41,733 nt of DNA, from NCBI GenBank assembly GCA_913049815.1, contig CAJWYI010000007.1, positions 1 to 41,733 of the forward strand, given 5' to 3'. Made by a program: the position numbers and the translations under genes. Source of the DNA: an uncultured Gammaproteobacteria bacterium (lineage in GTDB: Bacteria > Pseudomonadota > Gammaproteobacteria > Pseudomonadales > Azotimanducaceae). Shown piece after piece: positions 19,337 through 27,915 of the stretch. How positions within the stretch are numbered: position 1 is the first letter of the stretch; each line of letters opens with the position of its first letter. The notes beneath the pieces are model-generated. The model did not search any database and had not been told where the DNA came from. It was given only the letters and a program-made list of their open reading frames with translations.

Positions 19337-20147
19337 CGTTAATCCGCCTGATATGTTGTGGTTAACTGACACCACCTACCGTCCGCTTTTTGACAACTGC
19401 CACGTATCTCCGATCGGGCTTGGGACGGTCAAGATGGGCCGGAACCGAGGCGTAAAATATCCACGCTCATTTAAAATTCCAAATGATCGGGACGTCGCCA
19501 ATCTGCTGGCTCTTGCTTACGACCTCGGCATCAATCTCATCGACACAGCGCCCGCCTACGGCAACTGTGAGTCCCGCCTAGGAGCAATCCTGTCCAACAG
19601 GCATCAATGGGTCATCTGTACAAAAGCGGGTGAGTACTTCGACGGTCAAAAATCATCATTCGATTTCTCGCCAGAGGGTCTGACCAATAGTGTCGAACAG
19701 AGCCTCCGGCGACTTGCAACAGATTACCTGGACGTTGTGCTTCTTCACCTTCCAGATGACGACCTCTCGACCCTATCCTCTGAAGCATTAACCGCGCTCA
19801 GCAAACTAAAGGAACGCGGACTAATTCGCGCGATCGGCGCATCAACTAAGTCGACCCCTGCAGGGCTGCTTGCAGTCGAAGATTACGATGTCGTGATGAT
19901 CGCCTATCACCAGCAGGATACAACACAGCAGGCCGTCCTGGATGCCGCGCACGCTTCAAGCCGGGGTGTGATGATCAAGAAAGGCTTGCAAAGCGGCCAC
20001 AGCGGTTCACCCGATGAGTACCTCCGCTTTCTGATGGCCACATCGATGTCGAGCGTCATCGTGGGCACGATCAACCCATCTCATCTTGCCGCCAATGTCG
20101 CGACCATTGCACAGGTCATTACAGCGAACGGATCTTCTCTGCGATAA
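19329..20147 (+). CDS. Aldo/keto reductase family protein
   Basis: LALAYDLGINLIDTAPAYGNCESRLGAIL, ICTKAGEYFDG, DYLDVVLLHLPDDD, IRAIGASTKS; overlaps the FAD oxidoreductase end by 8 nt. Confidence 0.88.
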   Translation: MVNVNPPDMLWLTDTTYRPLFDNCHVSPIGLGTVKMGRNRGVKYPRSFKIPNDRDVANLLALAYDLGINLIDTAPAYGNCESRLGAILSNRHQWVICTKAGEYFDGQKSSFDFSPEGLTNSVEQSLRRLATDYLDVVLLHLPDDDLSTLSSEALTALSKLKERGLIRAIGASTKSTPAGLLAVEDYDVVMIAYHQQDTTQQAVLDAAHASSRGVMIKKGLQSGHSGSPDEYLRFLMATSMSSVIVGTINPSHLAANVATIAQVITANGSSLR

Positions 20148-21570
20148 GAGTTGTCGAAGTTCCCTGCACCAGTTGCAGGACCTTTACATCTCCACCGTAG
20201 TTAAGAACGATGTCGGCGCCCACAACCTCGTGAGCCTGATAGTCACCGCCTTTGACGAGGACGTCTGGCTTGAGTTCAGCCAGAAGTGCTTCTGGCGTGT
20301 CTTCTGAGAACGACGTCACCCAGTCGACAGCTTCTAGGCCAGCCAACATCGTCATCCGTCGATCGACAGGATTGATTGGTCGTCCGAACCCCTTTAGACG
20401 AGTAACGCCATCATCATCATTGATCGCTACAATCAGCCGGTCACCGTGCTGCCTCGCTTCCTCAAGGTAAGAAACGTGGCCAGCATGGAGAATGTCAAAA
20501 CAACCATTCGTAAAGACGATTCTTTCTCCCTGTCGTCGCGCATCAGCCACGACATCCTTCAACTGATGCGCCGACATCATGCCTTTTCCGACACTCAGTG
20601 CGTTCGCCATCTCAAGACGTAGTTCCGCTTCGCTTACGCTAGTCGTTCCCGACTGAGTCACAACGATGCCTGCAGCATAAGTGGCCCAATCAATCGCCTC
20701 GAGCATCGTAGCACCAACACTCATCGCCGACGCCATGATTGCGATAACCGTGTCACCCGCTCCCGTGACGTCGTAGACCTCCCGTTTGCGTGCGGGCAGG
20801 TGGTGGCTTTCACCATCACAATAGAGCGTCATCCCATCACTATGACGCGTCACCAACAACGCCCCGAGCTCGAGTTGTTCAATCAATGAGAGCGCTTTAT
20901 TCCGCATATCTGATTCATCGCGGCATTCTCCGACGGCCGCCTCAAACTCTTTCAAGTTCGGCTTGAGCATTGTGACGCCTCTATAGCATTCAAAATTCTT
21001 GTACTTCGGATCCACCAGGACAAGTTTTCTATCGTCCAGGACCGCGCGAATTAACATCCGGGGATCAGACAGCGTGCCTTTATCATAGTCTGAGAGAACA
21101 ACAGCGTTATACCCGGCAGCAGCCGCGTGATATTTGGCGACGAGCTCAGCTTCAGTCGGGGGGAACGTTTCCTCATCATCTGCACGAATCAGTTGTTGTT
21201 GCCGACTCATGATCCGCAGTTTCGTGATGGTGGGGTAATCATGAAGACGAACCAGAGACGGGTTGATCCCTGCGGTTTTGCATTTAGCCTCCAAAATCGA
21301 CGCATTTTCGTCATCACCACATAGGCCAATAAGAGCTGACCGTCCACCCAGCGTGGCGACATTCAATGCCACGTTGGCTGCACCACCCAAGCGAGCCTCC
21401 CTTTCTTCAATCGTGACAATGGGTACTGGCGCCTCTGCGGAAATACGGCTCGCATCGCCAATCCAGTACTGATCGAGAATGACATCACCGATGGTCAAGA
21501 CGCTCGCCCCGTCAAACGAAGGCAAAACTGTTAAAAAATTAGGTGGGTTCATGCGTTTCTCGTACGGCAA
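20119..21570 (-). CDS. hldE: Bifunctional D-glycero-beta-D-manno-heptose-7-phosphate kinase / heptose-1-phosphate adenylyltransferase
   Basis: VLTIGDVILDQYWIGDASRISAEAPVPIV, REVYDVTGAGDTVIA, FTNGCFDILHAGHVSYLEEARQHGDRLIVAINDDDGVTRLKG. Confidence 0.97.
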   Translation of the reverse strand: MPYEKRMNPPNFLTVLPSFDGASVLTIGDVILDQYWIGDASRISAEAPVPIVTIEEREARLGGAANVALNVATLGGRSALIGLCGDDENASILEAKCKTAGINPSLVRLHDYPTITKLRIMSRQQQLIRADDEETFPPTEAELVAKYHAAAAGYNAVVLSDYDKGTLSDPRMLIRAVLDDRKLVLVDPKYKNFECYRGVTMLKPNLKEFEAAVGECRDESDMRNKALSLIEQLELGALLVTRHSDGMTLYCDGESHHLPARKREVYDVTGAGDTVIAIMASAMSVGATMLEAIDWATYAAGIVVTQSGTTSVSEAELRLEMANALSVGKGMMSAHQLKDVVADARRQGERIVFTNGCFDILHAGHVSYLEEARQHGDRLIVAINDDDGVTRLKGFGRPINPVDRRMTMLAGLEAVDWVTSFSEDTPEALLAELKPDVLVKGGDYQAHEVVGADIVLNYGGDVKVLQLVQGTSTTLIAEKIRSL

Positions 21571-21580
21571 ACCTGTGCGG

Positions 21581-22648
21581 CTATCCTATGATGACTGAGT
21601 TCATTACTTCAGACATTCTGCGGGCGAAAACATCCGGGGTAAAGTTCCGCAGTCTTTCGTCGGCAGATTGGGGTATCACATGCTTGAGCTTCATAATCTC
21701 AGCCGCCAGAGAATTTGCGTTGCCACTCTCAAACAGAAGATCGGCGATCCCCAGTTCAGAGGGTCCTCCTGCATTGCTGCAAAGGACAGGCAGTTCTGCT
21801 GCACTACCCTCCAGTAACACCATACCAAAAGCCTCTTCGTGCCCGGAGGCCAGGACCAGACCATCAAAAGCCTTTAGATATCGGGATGCGGACGGCTTAT
21901 GACCGTGAAATACGACGCGTTCGGACAAACCTAGCTGCTCAACCTGCGCCTCAAGTGACGACCGAAGTGGTCCGTCACCAATAATCGACAAATGGATATC
22001 GTCCGGGACTTGATGCAGCGCGTCGAGCAACAACCTATGGTTTTTTTTGTTCACCAGACGACCGATAGAGACAAGCGCGAGACCCGACACCGAGAGCTCT
22101 AGTGCTGTACGCGCTTCTTTGCGATGAAGTAGGGCATCCACAAGATCTTCACGGACGGCATGATGCATTGTGAACAATCTTTCCGGCAATGCACCGCAGA
22201 ATCGTTCAATATCTCGTGCAACAGAGTTAGACACGGCGACCAGCCGCAGATGACGACACCATAACCGGACAAACAATGACCGCGTTGGCCGTTGGAACAC
22301 CTTGTGTTCGTGTACAACGCCGAGTAATGCACGCGGTCGATAGAGATAGCTGAGCACACCCGCCAGATAGATACATTTGTAGCGATGCGCAATAACAACA
22401 TCGAATTTGCCTTCATGCATGACCGCTGCCAATCGAGTCAGCGCCGTCCACTTGATACCCCGCAGGGAAGAAGAATCAAGCTCGAAAAACAGGACCTTAT
22501 CACCGCCTGTCTCATGAGCCACTGTCTGATCATTGGCGCCACAGAGATATACTGTGGTTATTCGATCTCTAGGTAACGCTCCCGCATATTGCCGGCAGAT
22601 ATCGACAAATGGGCCTTTGGCGTCATGGCAAATCTGTAGGACATTCAT
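21581..22648 (-). CDS. GT4-type glycosyltransferase (WaaG/WapH-like LPS core)
   Basis: LALVSIGRLVNKKNHRLLLDALHQVPDDIHLSIIGDGPLRSSLEAQVEQLGLSERVVFHGHKPSASRYLKAFDGLVLASGHEEAFGMVLLEGSAAELPVL; LPS locus context. Confidence 0.87.
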   Translation of the reverse strand: MNVLQICHDAKGPFVDICRQYAGALPRDRITTVYLCGANDQTVAHETGGDKVLFFELDSSSLRGIKWTALTRLAAVMHEGKFDVVIAHRYKCIYLAGVLSYLYRPRALLGVVHEHKVFQRPTRSLFVRLWCRHLRLVAVSNSVARDIERFCGALPERLFTMHHAVREDLVDALLHRKEARTALELSVSGLALVSIGRLVNKKNHRLLLDALHQVPDDIHLSIIGDGPLRSSLEAQVEQLGLSERVVFHGHKPSASRYLKAFDGLVLASGHEEAFGMVLLEGSAAELPVLCSNAGGPSELGIADLLFESGNANSLAAEIMKLKHVIPQSADERLRNFTPDVFARRMSEVMNSVIIG

Positions 22649-22690: not shown

Positions 22691-24136
22691 TCATGCATCC
22701 AGATCAGCCAATAATCCACGAAACTGGTTCGCGAGCTCAGGTCGATCCCGCCAGTTTTTCATGAAACGTTTGAGGTCGCGTCTGAACGCACGCCTGAAAC
22801 TGATGACATCATGATGTTCCTTCATGGCATCGAGGTCCAAGAGCACCGGACCTCGTTCCGACATCATGAAGTTCGTCGCCTTCATGTCACCATGACTGAT
22901 CCGGCTGTCTGACAAATCCTGGAGAAGCGATGAGATCGCAGCCATCTGATCATTAGGTTCTCGGCTGGTTTTGATCGTTGCCAGTGCATCGGTACCCGCA
23001 ACGTACTCTGAAACAAAATAGGCCCGCCCTCGGAAGGGGCCCACCTTTTCCTCGATCATCGCAACGGGCTTGACCGACGGAATTCCCAGAAACTCCATAC
23101 GCCACGCATTCACCCACGATCGCCGTGCTCGACTCAGGCCAATCGCACGTTTCAACCGGTGTAGTGCTCCTTTTAGGTTATAGCGCTTCACGACGAGATC
23201 ATGCCTGCCGACCTGAACCCTGACTATCGTCGCAGAACCGCCACGCTTCAGATTCTGACCACGATCCATCCAGTAATCCGGTCTGGACAACAGCTTTCTC
23301 ATATCTTGGGTGAGCAGCCTGCGGTCACAAACGACAAATCTATTGAAGGTCGACTCGCAAGCGAATTGCGTACAGTCCCGCAACGTTTTCCTCAAGTAAC
23401 CACGCTTTCTAGCTTCTCGCTGTTTGGACAGTGCATTATCCAAACGAGCGAGTTCGGACTCCCGCTCCTGCCAGGCTCTCTCGCGCTGGTAATCACGAAA
23501 CACCAGCGGAATCAGTGGATCGTAACGCGGAAAAAATTGTGTGAAAAATTCAGCAAGATTAGCAATGCTGTCCGAGCTGGACAGTGGCCCGCTACCCTGC
23601 CTCTCGACATGTCCACCATCAATCATGTAGAGCCGCTTTCCCACGCGCAGAAAGTTCCCCAGATGAATATCTCGCTGAATGACGCCTTTGCTGTGCATTT
23701 GCGCCAACATACTCATCGCTTCATGCAGGATGTCCAGGTGATCCGAACGAGACAAGGTGGCCTGCCAGTCAGATTGAAGACTCACGGCATCTTCCAGAAA
23801 CTCAAATGCCAGCAAATTACCTGCACTGATATCCGTTTCTCCCTGCCAGAGCAGACGCGGGGTTGGGATTGATGATTCCTGAATCAATGTGCTTCCGCGC
23901 ACCTCACGACGAGCGTACCGTTTAGCTGAGCGCCCCAGATACAGCTTGATCAACAACGGGTGTCCGTCTCCGTCTCCCCTCGTTGCGCGTGCAACCAGCC
24001 GTTTACCCGGGAGGATGCGTAGTATCTCTTCTACAGTGATTCGGCACTGGTCTGATCCGAAACGCCCCTCAAATGCGAACGGAACCTGCAGTGACCGACC
24101 TGCCAAGCAGATATCTTGTGTCGTTAACTCGATCAT
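22691..24136 (-). CDS. Tandem LPS-kinase-family protein (two protein-kinase-like/InaA-type domains in one chain)
   Basis: Domain 1 VIQRDIHLGNFLRVGKRLYMIDGGH; domain 2 RISHGDMKATNFMMSERGPVLLDLDAM; each retains D...N and downstream D motifs. Confidence 0.85.
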   Translation of the reverse strand: MIELTTQDICLAGRSLQVPFAFEGRFGSDQCRITVEEILRILPGKRLVARATRGDGDGHPLLIKLYLGRSAKRYARREVRGSTLIQESSIPTPRLLWQGETDISAGNLLAFEFLEDAVSLQSDWQATLSRSDHLDILHEAMSMLAQMHSKGVIQRDIHLGNFLRVGKRLYMIDGGHVERQGSGPLSSSDSIANLAEFFTQFFPRYDPLIPLVFRDYQRERAWQERESELARLDNALSKQREARKRGYLRKTLRDCTQFACESTFNRFVVCDRRLLTQDMRKLLSRPDYWMDRGQNLKRGGSATIVRVQVGRHDLVVKRYNLKGALHRLKRAIGLSRARRSWVNAWRMEFLGIPSVKPVAMIEEKVGPFRGRAYFVSEYVAGTDALATIKTSREPNDQMAAISSLLQDLSDSRISHGDMKATNFMMSERGPVLLDLDAMKEHHDVISFRRAFRRDLKRFMKNWRDRPELANQFRGLLADLDA

Positions 24137-24261: not shown

Positions 24262-25013
24262 TCACCGACGACCGCGTAAAAAGCGTAAAATGGCCCGGAG
24301 CAGCCGTTTGTCGTCACCTATGTACGTGCTGTGCTTTCTGTAGTGCAAGAAGAAACGGGGCCGACGGCTGCAATTAACATAGAAGCGGGCAACCCAATCC
24401 ATGCTGGCAAGATCCTTAATGACACCACTTCGATAAAGCGGTGCTGATTTCCTGAATATTCGCCCCAGAGGACAATTAACGATGCGTACATCCGGATCGA
24501 CTTTGGTGGCAAGAATGTTCCGCTACTCCAATCAAAGTGAGAGACCCCGCATCATGTAAGGAGCTTGTGCTATTCGCCAGCTCCCACATGACCTGAGCAC
24601 ACCATCTCCGGTCGTTGAACACATGCGATGACTATTGGGCCAGCGTCCATAAGTCAACACTGTCTGTGACTTCCTCTGTGACGATGCCGCCCCGTCTATA
24701 TTGTGTTTCAACAAATGCAACGAGTCTCGCGGTTGGTACGTTCAGCACCTCGAAGTAGCGTTGATTCTGCCATTCGTCGGCAAACCTAGAACGACCAAAG
24801 AAGCGGCGACAGTCTTATCCAGCAAGATGGTAAACTTCGAGTATTAGACCTTTCCGTCAAAGATGACGCGCTTCAGGTACGACATCCTCGTCGCGTTAAC
24901 AGCTTAGCCCTGCAAGTTTGCGATTCATTCAAATGAACTGAAGACACTGGATTCACTCGTAGTCACATCCGACGCCAGCCAATATTCTCCCCATTTCCCG
25001 CGATGCTCATCAT
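24262..25013 (-). pseudogene. Decayed LPS core kinase (WapP/InaA family-like) with several frameshifts and stops
   Basis: Manual three-frame translation of the minus strand gives collinear kinase fragments: 24632-24808 RRFFGRSRFADEWQNQRYFEVLNVPTARLVAFVETQYRRGGIVTEEVTDSVDLWTLAQ*; 24545-24592 VMWELANSTSSLHDAG; then SHFDWS in another frame; 24262-24522 RNILATKVDPDVRIVNCPLGRIFRKSAPLYRSGVIKDLASMDWVARFYVNCSRRPRFFLHYRKHSTYIGDDKRLLRAILRFLRGRR*. The 5' boundary is approximate. Confidence 0.82.
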
Positions 25014-25810
25014 CCCGTTAACCAGTCTGGCAAAGGAGCACCTTCACGGTGTCCCAGCCACTGTGCACGTTTGAGCACATCTCGCCAAAAAAGCTGGTCC
25101 ATTTTCAAGGCGTCTTTCAATGGTTTGCCGGAGTACCGTCGAATGAAGCAAAGAAGGTCCATCCGCGTATAACCAGCGCCGAATGACGAAAACAACAGTG
25201 AACCCAAATCCTTTACAAGCCAACGATACGGCACGTGATCTCTGCATTGCGCACGATGAAAATCGATGAGGTACAACGCCGCGTTAACGTCGCCATGATC
25301 AAGATGAAAGTGACAGATGTAGAGATCTCGATGGTTCACACCCAACGCGTGCATCGAACGAATGTAACTTGCCAGTCGAATGACCAACCGTCGACGGTCA
25401 CGCGGTGTGATCGGATCTTTCGCGAGGTCCTCCAGCGTCACTGTTTTGGTCAGCGCTTCCATCACGATGACAGAATGTTGTCTCGCAGGGTCCCAGCCAT
25501 CAACCTCGAGTGCAACTGGCGAAGGTACCAGCAACCCCGCATCCTGCATACGTCGCAGCGCATGCCATTCATTCCCAGCTCCTAGGACAGGCGCACGAAA
25601 TCTAATCCAGTTCTTGATCATCTCAAGCCATCCAACACCCGAATGCACCTTAGCGAAATAGTCGGCGTCTTCGTGCGTGAACTTGAAGGTTCTTCGCGCA
25701 GCGAGTTCCCGGTGCACCTCGCCTTCAACAGACTGGAGCTGCATAAACAGCGATCCCGGCGGAAAAGCATCGATGAATCGATGGTCGTCAGTCTGATAGT
25801 AGGTAATCAC
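25010..25810 (-). CDS. waaP: LPS core heptose(I) kinase
   Basis: VHSGVGWLEMIKNWIRFRAPVLGAGNEWHAL, GVNHRDLYICHFHLD, LYLIDFHRAQCR, RWLVKDLGSLLFSSF; downstream of waaC. Confidence 0.95.
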   Translation of the reverse strand: MITYYQTDDHRFIDAFPPGSLFMQLQSVEGEVHRELAARRTFKFTHEDADYFAKVHSGVGWLEMIKNWIRFRAPVLGAGNEWHALRRMQDAGLLVPSPVALEVDGWDPARQHSVIVMEALTKTVTLEDLAKDPITPRDRRRLVIRLASYIRSMHALGVNHRDLYICHFHLDHGDVNAALYLIDFHRAQCRDHVPYRWLVKDLGSLLFSSFGAGYTRMDLLCFIRRYSGKPLKDALKMDQLFWRDVLKRAQWLGHREGAPLPDWLTG

Positions 25811-25816
25811 CGTACG

Positions 25817-26848
25817 CTACCTTGACAGGACCCCAACCAATGTCGACGCAACTCGCTCAGGTGTAATCTGCTCGTAACAGGGCGGAAAGATAGCGTTTCG
25901 ATTAGGCAAAGGTAAAAACTGACAGTCTTTCCTAAGACAAGGAGCACAAGGCAAGTGCCGGGTTGCGAGAGTAGTCACTTGCCTTCCATACATCCCCGTC
26001 AACGTCGAGTTGGTAGCACCATAGATACCGATAACCGGCTTCTCCATCGCAACAGCTAGGTGCCCCAGACCACTGTCCACGGATACAACGCCGTGACACA
26101 ACGCCATTTCGCGCATCACGTCCGTGAGCGGCATCTGCGGCAATAACCGAGCGTTTGGCAGATCACGCACCACGAACTCTGCCCTCTCTTTTTCCTTTGC
26201 ACTTCCAGAGGTCAAGACAACTTCAATATCCGATTCACCCAAAGAACGAGCCAACTCCCGCCAACAATCTCGTGGCCAGTGTTTGGATTCCCAGGTAGTG
26301 CCATGTAGTAGCATTACCCGAGTCGGCCAAGTTGGCTCGAGCGGAACACGCTGATCAAGTCCATAATTCGGTTCTCCAATTGGTACCTCATATCCGAGTG
26401 TGCGGGCAAACAGCTGGCGAACACGCGTTACCGCATGTTGAGAACGAGGCACACTGACAGTTTCGTGATAGAAACGACGACTCAATGGTTCTCGCGCTGA
26501 TTGACCATCAAGCCCCGCGACCGTTCCTCTAGCAAGTCCTGCAACAACGGCACTCTTCAGCAAACCCTGAGCGTCGATGATCAGGTCATATCGAACATCT
26601 CTCAGCCGCCTCACAAACCGGGATGCATCCCGAAGCCCTCCGGACCGTGGCAGCTGCCGAGTCCAGCGTCGCAAGCCGATCGGGATGACTTGGTCAACGG
26701 CCGGATGTTGATCAGGAATGGCGGTAAAGGCCTCCTCAACAACCCAGTCAAAACGGATGTCGTCTCGAAGGCTCACGGCGTCTGAAATCGCAGGGAGCGT
26801 GTGGATGACATCACCGAGCGATGACATCTTGACCACCAGAACTCTCAA
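25817..26848 (-). CDS. waaC: ADP-heptose:LPS heptosyltransferase I
   Basis: MRVLVVKMSSLGDVIHTLPAISDA, DLIIDAQGLLKSAVVAGLARG, VSVDSGLGHLAVAMEKPVIGIYGATN; GT9 family. Confidence 0.95.
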   Translation of the reverse strand: MRVLVVKMSSLGDVIHTLPAISDAVSLRDDIRFDWVVEEAFTAIPDQHPAVDQVIPIGLRRWTRQLPRSGGLRDASRFVRRLRDVRYDLIIDAQGLLKSAVVAGLARGTVAGLDGQSAREPLSRRFYHETVSVPRSQHAVTRVRQLFARTLGYEVPIGEPNYGLDQRVPLEPTWPTRVMLLHGTTWESKHWPRDCWRELARSLGESDIEVVLTSGSAKEKERAEFVVRDLPNARLLPQMPLTDVMREMALCHGVVSVDSGLGHLAVAMEKPVIGIYGATNSTLTGMYGRQVTTLATRHLPCAPCLRKDCQFLPLPNRNAIFPPCYEQITPERVASTLVGVLSR

Positions 26849-27915
26849 CGCTGACCGACCTGAAGACGACGATCTACCTCAGGCCAAACCTGTTCAGGTT
26901 TGAGACCACGCAGGCACTCCATGTGCTCAAGTGGACACGTTCGTTTGAAGCAAGGTCGACACGGCATCTCTTTCGCAATGACGGTCGCGTTGGCGTCGAG
27001 AGGAGGAGTGAAGCTCGGTGTCGTAGACCCGTAAACGGCAACCAGAGGTGTCCCAACGGCGGCGGCAATATGCATGAGGCCCGAGTCGTTGCAGACCGCG
27101 CTGGAACAAAATGCAAGTATATCGACAACGTCCAACAACGTTGTCTCACCTGTCAGATTGATCACGCGAGGATCAGCGCCGCACTTCTCGACGACCGTTT
27201 CTGCAATTTTGACATCACCGGGTCCGCCAAGAATCAAAACGCTATTGCCTGCCAAGACGGCTCGCTTCGCAATATTTGCAAAATGGTCCGCCGGCCAACG
27301 TTTAGCTTCACCAAACTCAGCGCCAGGACACAACGCAAGCAAGGATTTGTCTGTCGGGATGGAAAAACGTACTGCCAACTCAGCCTGATGGTCAGCATCC
27401 GTCATTAATTGGGGCAGATAATCATCAACCGCGCACACAGGATCTGCCGTCGGAGGGTCTGCAAGAACCAGAAATCGGTCAATCATCCGTGGTAGCAGTT
27501 TCTCATTTAGAAAACGAACATCATTCAACAAAAAGTATCGATATTCGCCAAGGAAGCCAGTCCGGCGAGGAATTCCGGCAAAAGCCGGCAATAGCGCAGA
27601 TTTGAGAGACCCAGGCAACACGATAGCATCCTGGTATCCATTTTCAGACAGACGCCTTCCAAGTCCATAACGATACGACAAACGCAGTTCACCATGCGCT
27701 GCGTCCATCATTACACCCCTAGAGACTTCAGCCATTCGGCTCACAAGAGGCAAGGTCGCCCTTGGTAACAATACGTCGATCGGTCTATCAGGGAAACGAT
27801 GCCGCAATCGCTTGTAGAGGACCTGAGACATCACCATATCGCCAACCCAAGCGGGTCCGACGACAAGAATACCCGCGGCTTCGTCGTCTTGATTGGTCTC
27901 CGGTGAAAACATCAC
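26845..27915 (-). CDS. waaF: ADP-heptose:LPS heptosyltransferase II
   Basis: ILVVGPAWVGDMVMSQVLYKRL, CPGAEFGEAKRWPADHFANIA, VCNDSGLMHIAAAVGTPLVAVYGSTTPSFTPPL; overlaps waaC by 4 nt. Confidence 0.96.
   Translation of the reverse strand: MMFSPETNQDDEAAGILVVGPAWVGDMVMSQVLYKRLRHRFPDRPIDVLLPRATLPLVSRMAEVSRGVMMDAAHGELRLSYRYGLGRRLSENGYQDAIVLPGSLKSALLPAFAGIPRRTGFLGEYRYFLLNDVRFLNEKLLPRMIDRFLVLADPPTADPVCAVDDYLPQLMTDADHQAELAVRFSIPTDKSLLALCPGAEFGEAKRWPADHFANIAKRAVLAGNSVLILGGPGDVKIAETVVEKCGADPRVINLTGETTLLDVVDILAFCSSAVCNDSGLMHIAAAVGTPLVAVYGSTTPSFTPPLDANATVIAKEMPCRPCFKRTCPLEHMECLRGLKPEQVWPEVDRRLQVGQR

Follow-up and report, generated by a model that had tools for sequence, protein, structure and literature searches.

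Contents of the Slot That Separates waaP from the Tandem Kinase Gene

In the lipopolysaccharide (LPS) inner-core gene cluster of an uncultured gammaproteobacterium of the family Azotimanducaceae, about 0.75 kb of DNA between waaP and the gene for a tandem two-domain kinase appears nearly empty of open reading frames. Which gene once occupied this slot, and could it still supply an enzyme? The slot was analyzed in the window, the entire 41,733-nucleotide stretch of DNA under study, which is contig C7 of a draft genome (2.78 Mb, 218 contigs, 85.8% complete). The slot almost certainly holds a wapP pseudogene; in LPS inner-core clusters of the Pseudomonas type, wapP is the second of the kinase genes. 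The features of the locus are collected in Table 1.

Table 1. Coordinates of the wapP relic, its lesions, and the neighboring core genes in the window
Feature	Position	Strand	Remarks
wapP pseudogene slot	24262..25013	-	PF06293 match through stops; frameshift-aware alignment; tree with intact WapP
alignable wapP relic	24262-24990	-	start codon lost
frameshift 1	24840	-	just before the catalytic-lysine position; EVYH in the window, KVYH in the sister genome
frameshifts 2 and 3	24544, 24524	-	flank the catalytic-loop remnant SHFDWS (24524..24544)
five internal stops	starting at 24927, 24906, 24846, 24817, 24634	-	the last of these five is 24632..24634
waaP, heptose I kinase	25010..25810	-	intact, 266 aa; PF06293 144.9 bits; 74% identical to sister
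tandem two-domain core kinase	22691..24136	-	intact, 481 aa; PA5006 position; 81% identical to sister
waaC-like heptosyltransferase	25817..26848	-	intact; PF01075
waaF-like heptosyltransferase	26845..27915	-	intact; 77% identical to sister; named by synteny
GT4 glycosyltransferase	21581..22648	-	intact; wapH-like position
hldE	20119..21570	-	intact; end of core cluster; 83% identical to sister; named by synteny and sequence

The upstream edge of the slot is set by the stop codon of waaP (25012-25010), and the final in-frame stop of the relic is found at 24264-24262 on the minus strand. No in-frame start codon was found upstream of 24990 in the reading of the relic on this strand. The kinase-like peptides that the first-pass annotation had assembled across the slot were all recovered on the minus strand in the same places and frames, with LHDAG, SHFDWS, and RNIL lying in three different frames at approximately 24560-24510.

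That annotation had proposed a frameshift-aware search as a check of the kinase similarity, and the search supports it. Alignment of the slot with the syntenic frame of the sister genome (OM182 bacterium MED-G24) gave 59% identity over 239 residues and a score of 663, with three frameshifts and five stops. The scores obtained by chance against the same frame were at most 47 for 40 base shuffles and at most 44 for 48 comparisons with other stretches or strands of the window. A score of 261 was obtained with the intact WapP of another genus, for which the maxima were 41 (shuffles) and 54 (other stretches). The DNA of the sister slot is 64% identical to that of the window slot (E 5.7e-21). The slot is a member of the Kdo/WaaP kinase family: it matches PF06293 at 24545-24877 with 24.8 bits (E 1.7e-5; curated cut-off, 21.3 bits), with three stops inside the match. 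A WapP profile matches the relic in two halves of 88 and 63 bits. Chance similarity as the source of the kinase signal is ruled out by the shuffles and by the other stretches of the window.

Loss of the Catalytic Residues

A functional WapP would require one open reading frame, and the slot is interrupted by three frameshifts and five stops. A functional kinase would also require a catalytic lysine, a catalytic-loop aspartate, and a metal-binding aspartate, and this set is incomplete in the relic. The position of the catalytic lysine is occupied by glutamate, and the metal-binding aspartate has been replaced by asparagine (IDCP to VNCP), the latter change having been noted in the earlier reading of the letters. 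The aspartate of the catalytic loop (HFD) is retained but separated by frameshifts. Of 42 positions that are invariant among eight intact WapP proteins, 29 are kept in the window and 39 in the sister genome. The equivalents of the two lost residues in Pseudomonas aeruginosa WaaP are K51 and D188, which together with the HRD motif are the catalytic residues of that enzyme, and the K51A variant fails to support growth (PMC6147952). Among solved structures, that of WaaP (RfaP; PDB 6DFL) is nearest to the WapP profile (E 2.7e-16). With its frameshifts and stops, and with neither the ATP-lysine nor the metal-binding aspartate at its position, the gene cannot yield a working kinase, and the wapP copy of this genome is useless as a kinase.

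Identity of the Broken Gene and Origin of Its Lesions

In eight related genomes, waaP is followed by a gene for a kinase of 244-274 residues. The small kinase genes of these relatives are usually followed by the tandem kinase gene and then by that of a carbamoyltransferase. The order in Pseudomonas is waaP, wapP, wapQ, PA5006, and wapO (gene names from PMC8005017 and PMC9866376). The slot was named wapP because the order in the relatives is that of Pseudomonas and the slot groups with the first small kinase; intact genes of order-level relatives stand in the tree in place of a named Pseudomonas WapP such as that of PAO1, so the basis of the name is gene position together with these relatives. 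WapP of P. aeruginosa (PA5008) belongs to the same kinase family, and its gene likewise follows waaP directly and precedes that of the tandem kinase.

Position by itself is ambiguous, since a second small kinase follows the first in two of the eight relatives (the order-level relatives L050 and L048), and the relic could instead derive from wapQ/inaA or from a duplicated waaP. In a maximum-likelihood tree, however, the slots of both genus members and the intact first small kinases (k2) fall into one group with support of 96/98. The waaP genes form a separate clade (100/100), and waaP itself is intact next door to the relic. The second small kinases (k3, InaA/WapQ type) are also separate (98/91); these kinases share the superfamily and occupy the adjacent slot in Pseudomonas, and the InaA model is the best match of the L050 copy. 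The WapP profile gives the sister frame 277 bits. An origin from wapQ/inaA or waaP is thus very unlikely, and the relic has both marks of a WapP orthologue: it groups with the kinases that follow waaP, and it is flanked by waaP and the gene for the tandem kinase. The first-pass annotation had seen a decayed kinase of the LPS core at the wapP/wapQ position, and this assignment is confirmed and can now be narrowed to wapP. The lesions of the wapP relic might also be errors of sequencing or assembly in a gene that is intact in the living cell; the draft is fragmented, and all three frameshifts are single-base. Against this stand eight separate lesions in one gene, the catalytic substitutions, and an excess of amino acid change. 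Eight of eight neighbors (waaP, the tandem kinase, waaC, waaF, GT4, hldE, waaA, and ilvE), all of them long genes, are uninterrupted and of similar length in both genomes, which makes a sloppy assembly unlikely. Random indel errors would neither spare the neighbors nor change catalytic residues in a single gene. Assembly noise as the cause was rejected in view of the intact neighbors, an intact wapP in the cell is extremely unlikely, and the earlier view that a single sequencing error would not explain the locus holds.

The wapP relic is a real, ordinary pseudogene of a known kind. Bacterial LPS-core pseudogenes generally carry small indels and stops in a single gene of an otherwise intact cluster, as found here. 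In a pathovar of Pseudomonas syringae, the orthologue of PSPTO_5001, a core gene, is likely frameshifted (PMC8005017). The decay of wapP in the window is deeper than in such ordinary pseudogenes, with eight lesions and the catalytic positions lost. The new points are the differently placed stop of the sister gene, a wapO gene found in neither genome, and the patchy occurrence of wapP across the family.

The waaP product scores 253.8 bits against the NCBIfam RfaP equivalog (cut-off 170), and the tandem kinase gives 45.7 bits with PF06293. A PF06293 search of the assembled, 85.8% complete draft genome yielded only three matches, each of them inside the window (waaP, the tandem kinase, and the relic); an intact second copy of wapP could lie in the missing part.

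Expected Consequences for the LPS Core

Intact wapP would encode a eukaryotic-kinase-like enzyme of approximately 250 residues with the inner core as its substrate and heptose II as the probable site of phosphorylation. In P. aeruginosa, heptose I is the target of WaaP, and both this kinase and WapP are described as essential (PMC6147952), in contrast to the broken gene in the window. The carbamoylation by WapO has been placed on heptose II (PMC8005017), and wapQ can be deleted (PMC8982409). Since the waaF-like gene is intact, heptose II should still be added. From gene content, a core that lacks the WapP phosphate is the likely consequence, in line with the lost phosphorylation step suggested by the first-pass annotation; in principle, another enzyme might take over this step, the retained tandem kinase being one candidate. 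The relic records, at a midway stage, how a core kinase that is reported to be essential in P. aeruginosa is lost, and WapP appears to be dispensable in this OM182-clade relative.

The Sister Genome and the Tempo of Decay

The nearest sequenced relative, MED-G24 (G001), is a gammaproteobacterium of the OM182 clade in the same genus; a close tandem kinase (81% identity) was found on a genome contig of this bacterium only. Its gene order matches that of the window: ilvE, waaF, waaC, waaP, slot, tandem kinase, GT4, hldE, and waaA. A comparison with sister genomes for an intact copy had been suggested as a check. The sister slot (L035:5448-6203) holds one continuous frame of 251 residues in which all of the kinase motifs are present (YYVKVYH, HYDLKWRN, and IIDCPLGR), and the frame is interrupted by a single TAA. 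This TAA falls where the window has no stop, and no stop or frameshift is common to the two genomes. The TAA may mean that the sister gene became a pseudogene very recently, that the stop is a variant of this strain, or that the sequence contains an error.

The branch lengths are 0.52 changes per site for the window slot and 0.14 for the sister slot; those for waaP are 0.20 (window) and 0.18 (sister). The pN/pS of the slot (0.31) is the highest among nine genes compared (waaP, 0.20; tandem kinase, 0.17). Its interval (0.25-0.38) overlaps that of the GT4 gene (0.21-0.33), and pN/pS alone is therefore no proof of relaxed selection. Third codon positions account for 56% of the slot differences between the two genomes, and this dominance indicates that most of the divergence arose under constraint. 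In simulations of neutral change starting from the sister frame, five stops fit approximately 0.1-0.5 changes per site. Synonymous changes between the two genomes are near saturation, so dS provides no numerical date and the decay was probably confined to a later stage of the lineage. The recent loss proposed earlier is supported in these relative terms, by the third positions, the full length of the relic, and the number of stops. Following the split from the sister species, the gene would have kept its function until a relatively late stage, and purifying selection on it would then have been relaxed. The WapP phosphate would subsequently have been missing from the core or supplied by another enzyme.

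Distribution of wapP, wapO, and waaG in the Family

Full-length WapP was detected in about two dozen of 151 sampled family genomes (25 intact frames with E < 1e-50, of which those of G024 and G104 score low and possibly represent another subtype). Within this sample, WapP with stops was found only in the two members of the window's genus. Several genera (e.g., g15, g25, g26, and g34) contain members with and without wapP, subject to the incompleteness of genomes, and wapP loss seems to be recurrent in the family. The family members with and without wapP would provide a natural comparison for the changes that make WapP dispensable.

The gene may already have been dispensable in the ancestor of the genus and lost separately in both known members together with wapO, which would leave heptose II less decorated. 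The sister frame has its own TAA and none of the window's lesions, and the carbamoyltransferase family of wapO (PF02543) is present in eight of eight family relatives tested and was found in neither genome of the genus, both of which are approximately 85% complete. This incompleteness weighs against the proposal. The sister frame, with its 39 invariant positions and a functional evolutionary rate, points to a stop that is very young, strain-level, or an error. In addition, several relatives without wapP keep wapO, so loss of one gene does not generally go with loss of the other. An ancestral dispensability of wapP is accordingly possible and somewhat doubtful. That this marine genus has abandoned the decoration of heptose II, with wapP broken separately in both species and wapO gone, is unlikely; if true, some other change of the outer membrane would have made WapP dispensable in the genus.

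The gene waaG is missing from the core cluster in both genomes of the genus. A waaG homologue was located in the window genome on contig C62 (84-1178), with 53% identity to its counterpart in an order-level relative. The remainder of C62 is syntenic with the sister, so contamination is probably not the source. A truncated core through loss of waaG was dropped for the window genome, in which waaG appears to be relocated, not lost. The relocated gene lies beside ilvD, outside the core cluster (L064:3-1181), and the sister has no waaG at that place. Contigs C211 and C62 share a 60-base overlap (97%) at their ends; C211 carries genes for an lpxL-like acyltransferase and a GT2-like glycosyltransferase (L066:1968-3826), a hint of a second LPS locus.

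Other arrangements of the core genes were observed among the relatives. In G012, the position of waaP has shifted: it follows hldE at the far end of the cluster (L045:10071-10907). The tandem kinase of G043 is apparently split into two genes of approximately 320 residues each (L049:2176-4115), of which the first alone matches by BLAST. A single open frame of 690 residues in G025 (L042:7255-9327) matches both WaaP and a GT4 glycosyltransferase and thus resembles a waaG-waaP fusion, and several other genomes of the family have WaaP-like matches within open frames of 750-840 residues. A protein of approximately 750-780 residues is encoded between waaC and waaP at L036:7397-9658, L037:7215-9488, L038:7726-10062, L039:7009-9354, and L052:770-3103; the L036 copy, the one that was scanned, contains two glycosyltransferase stretches.
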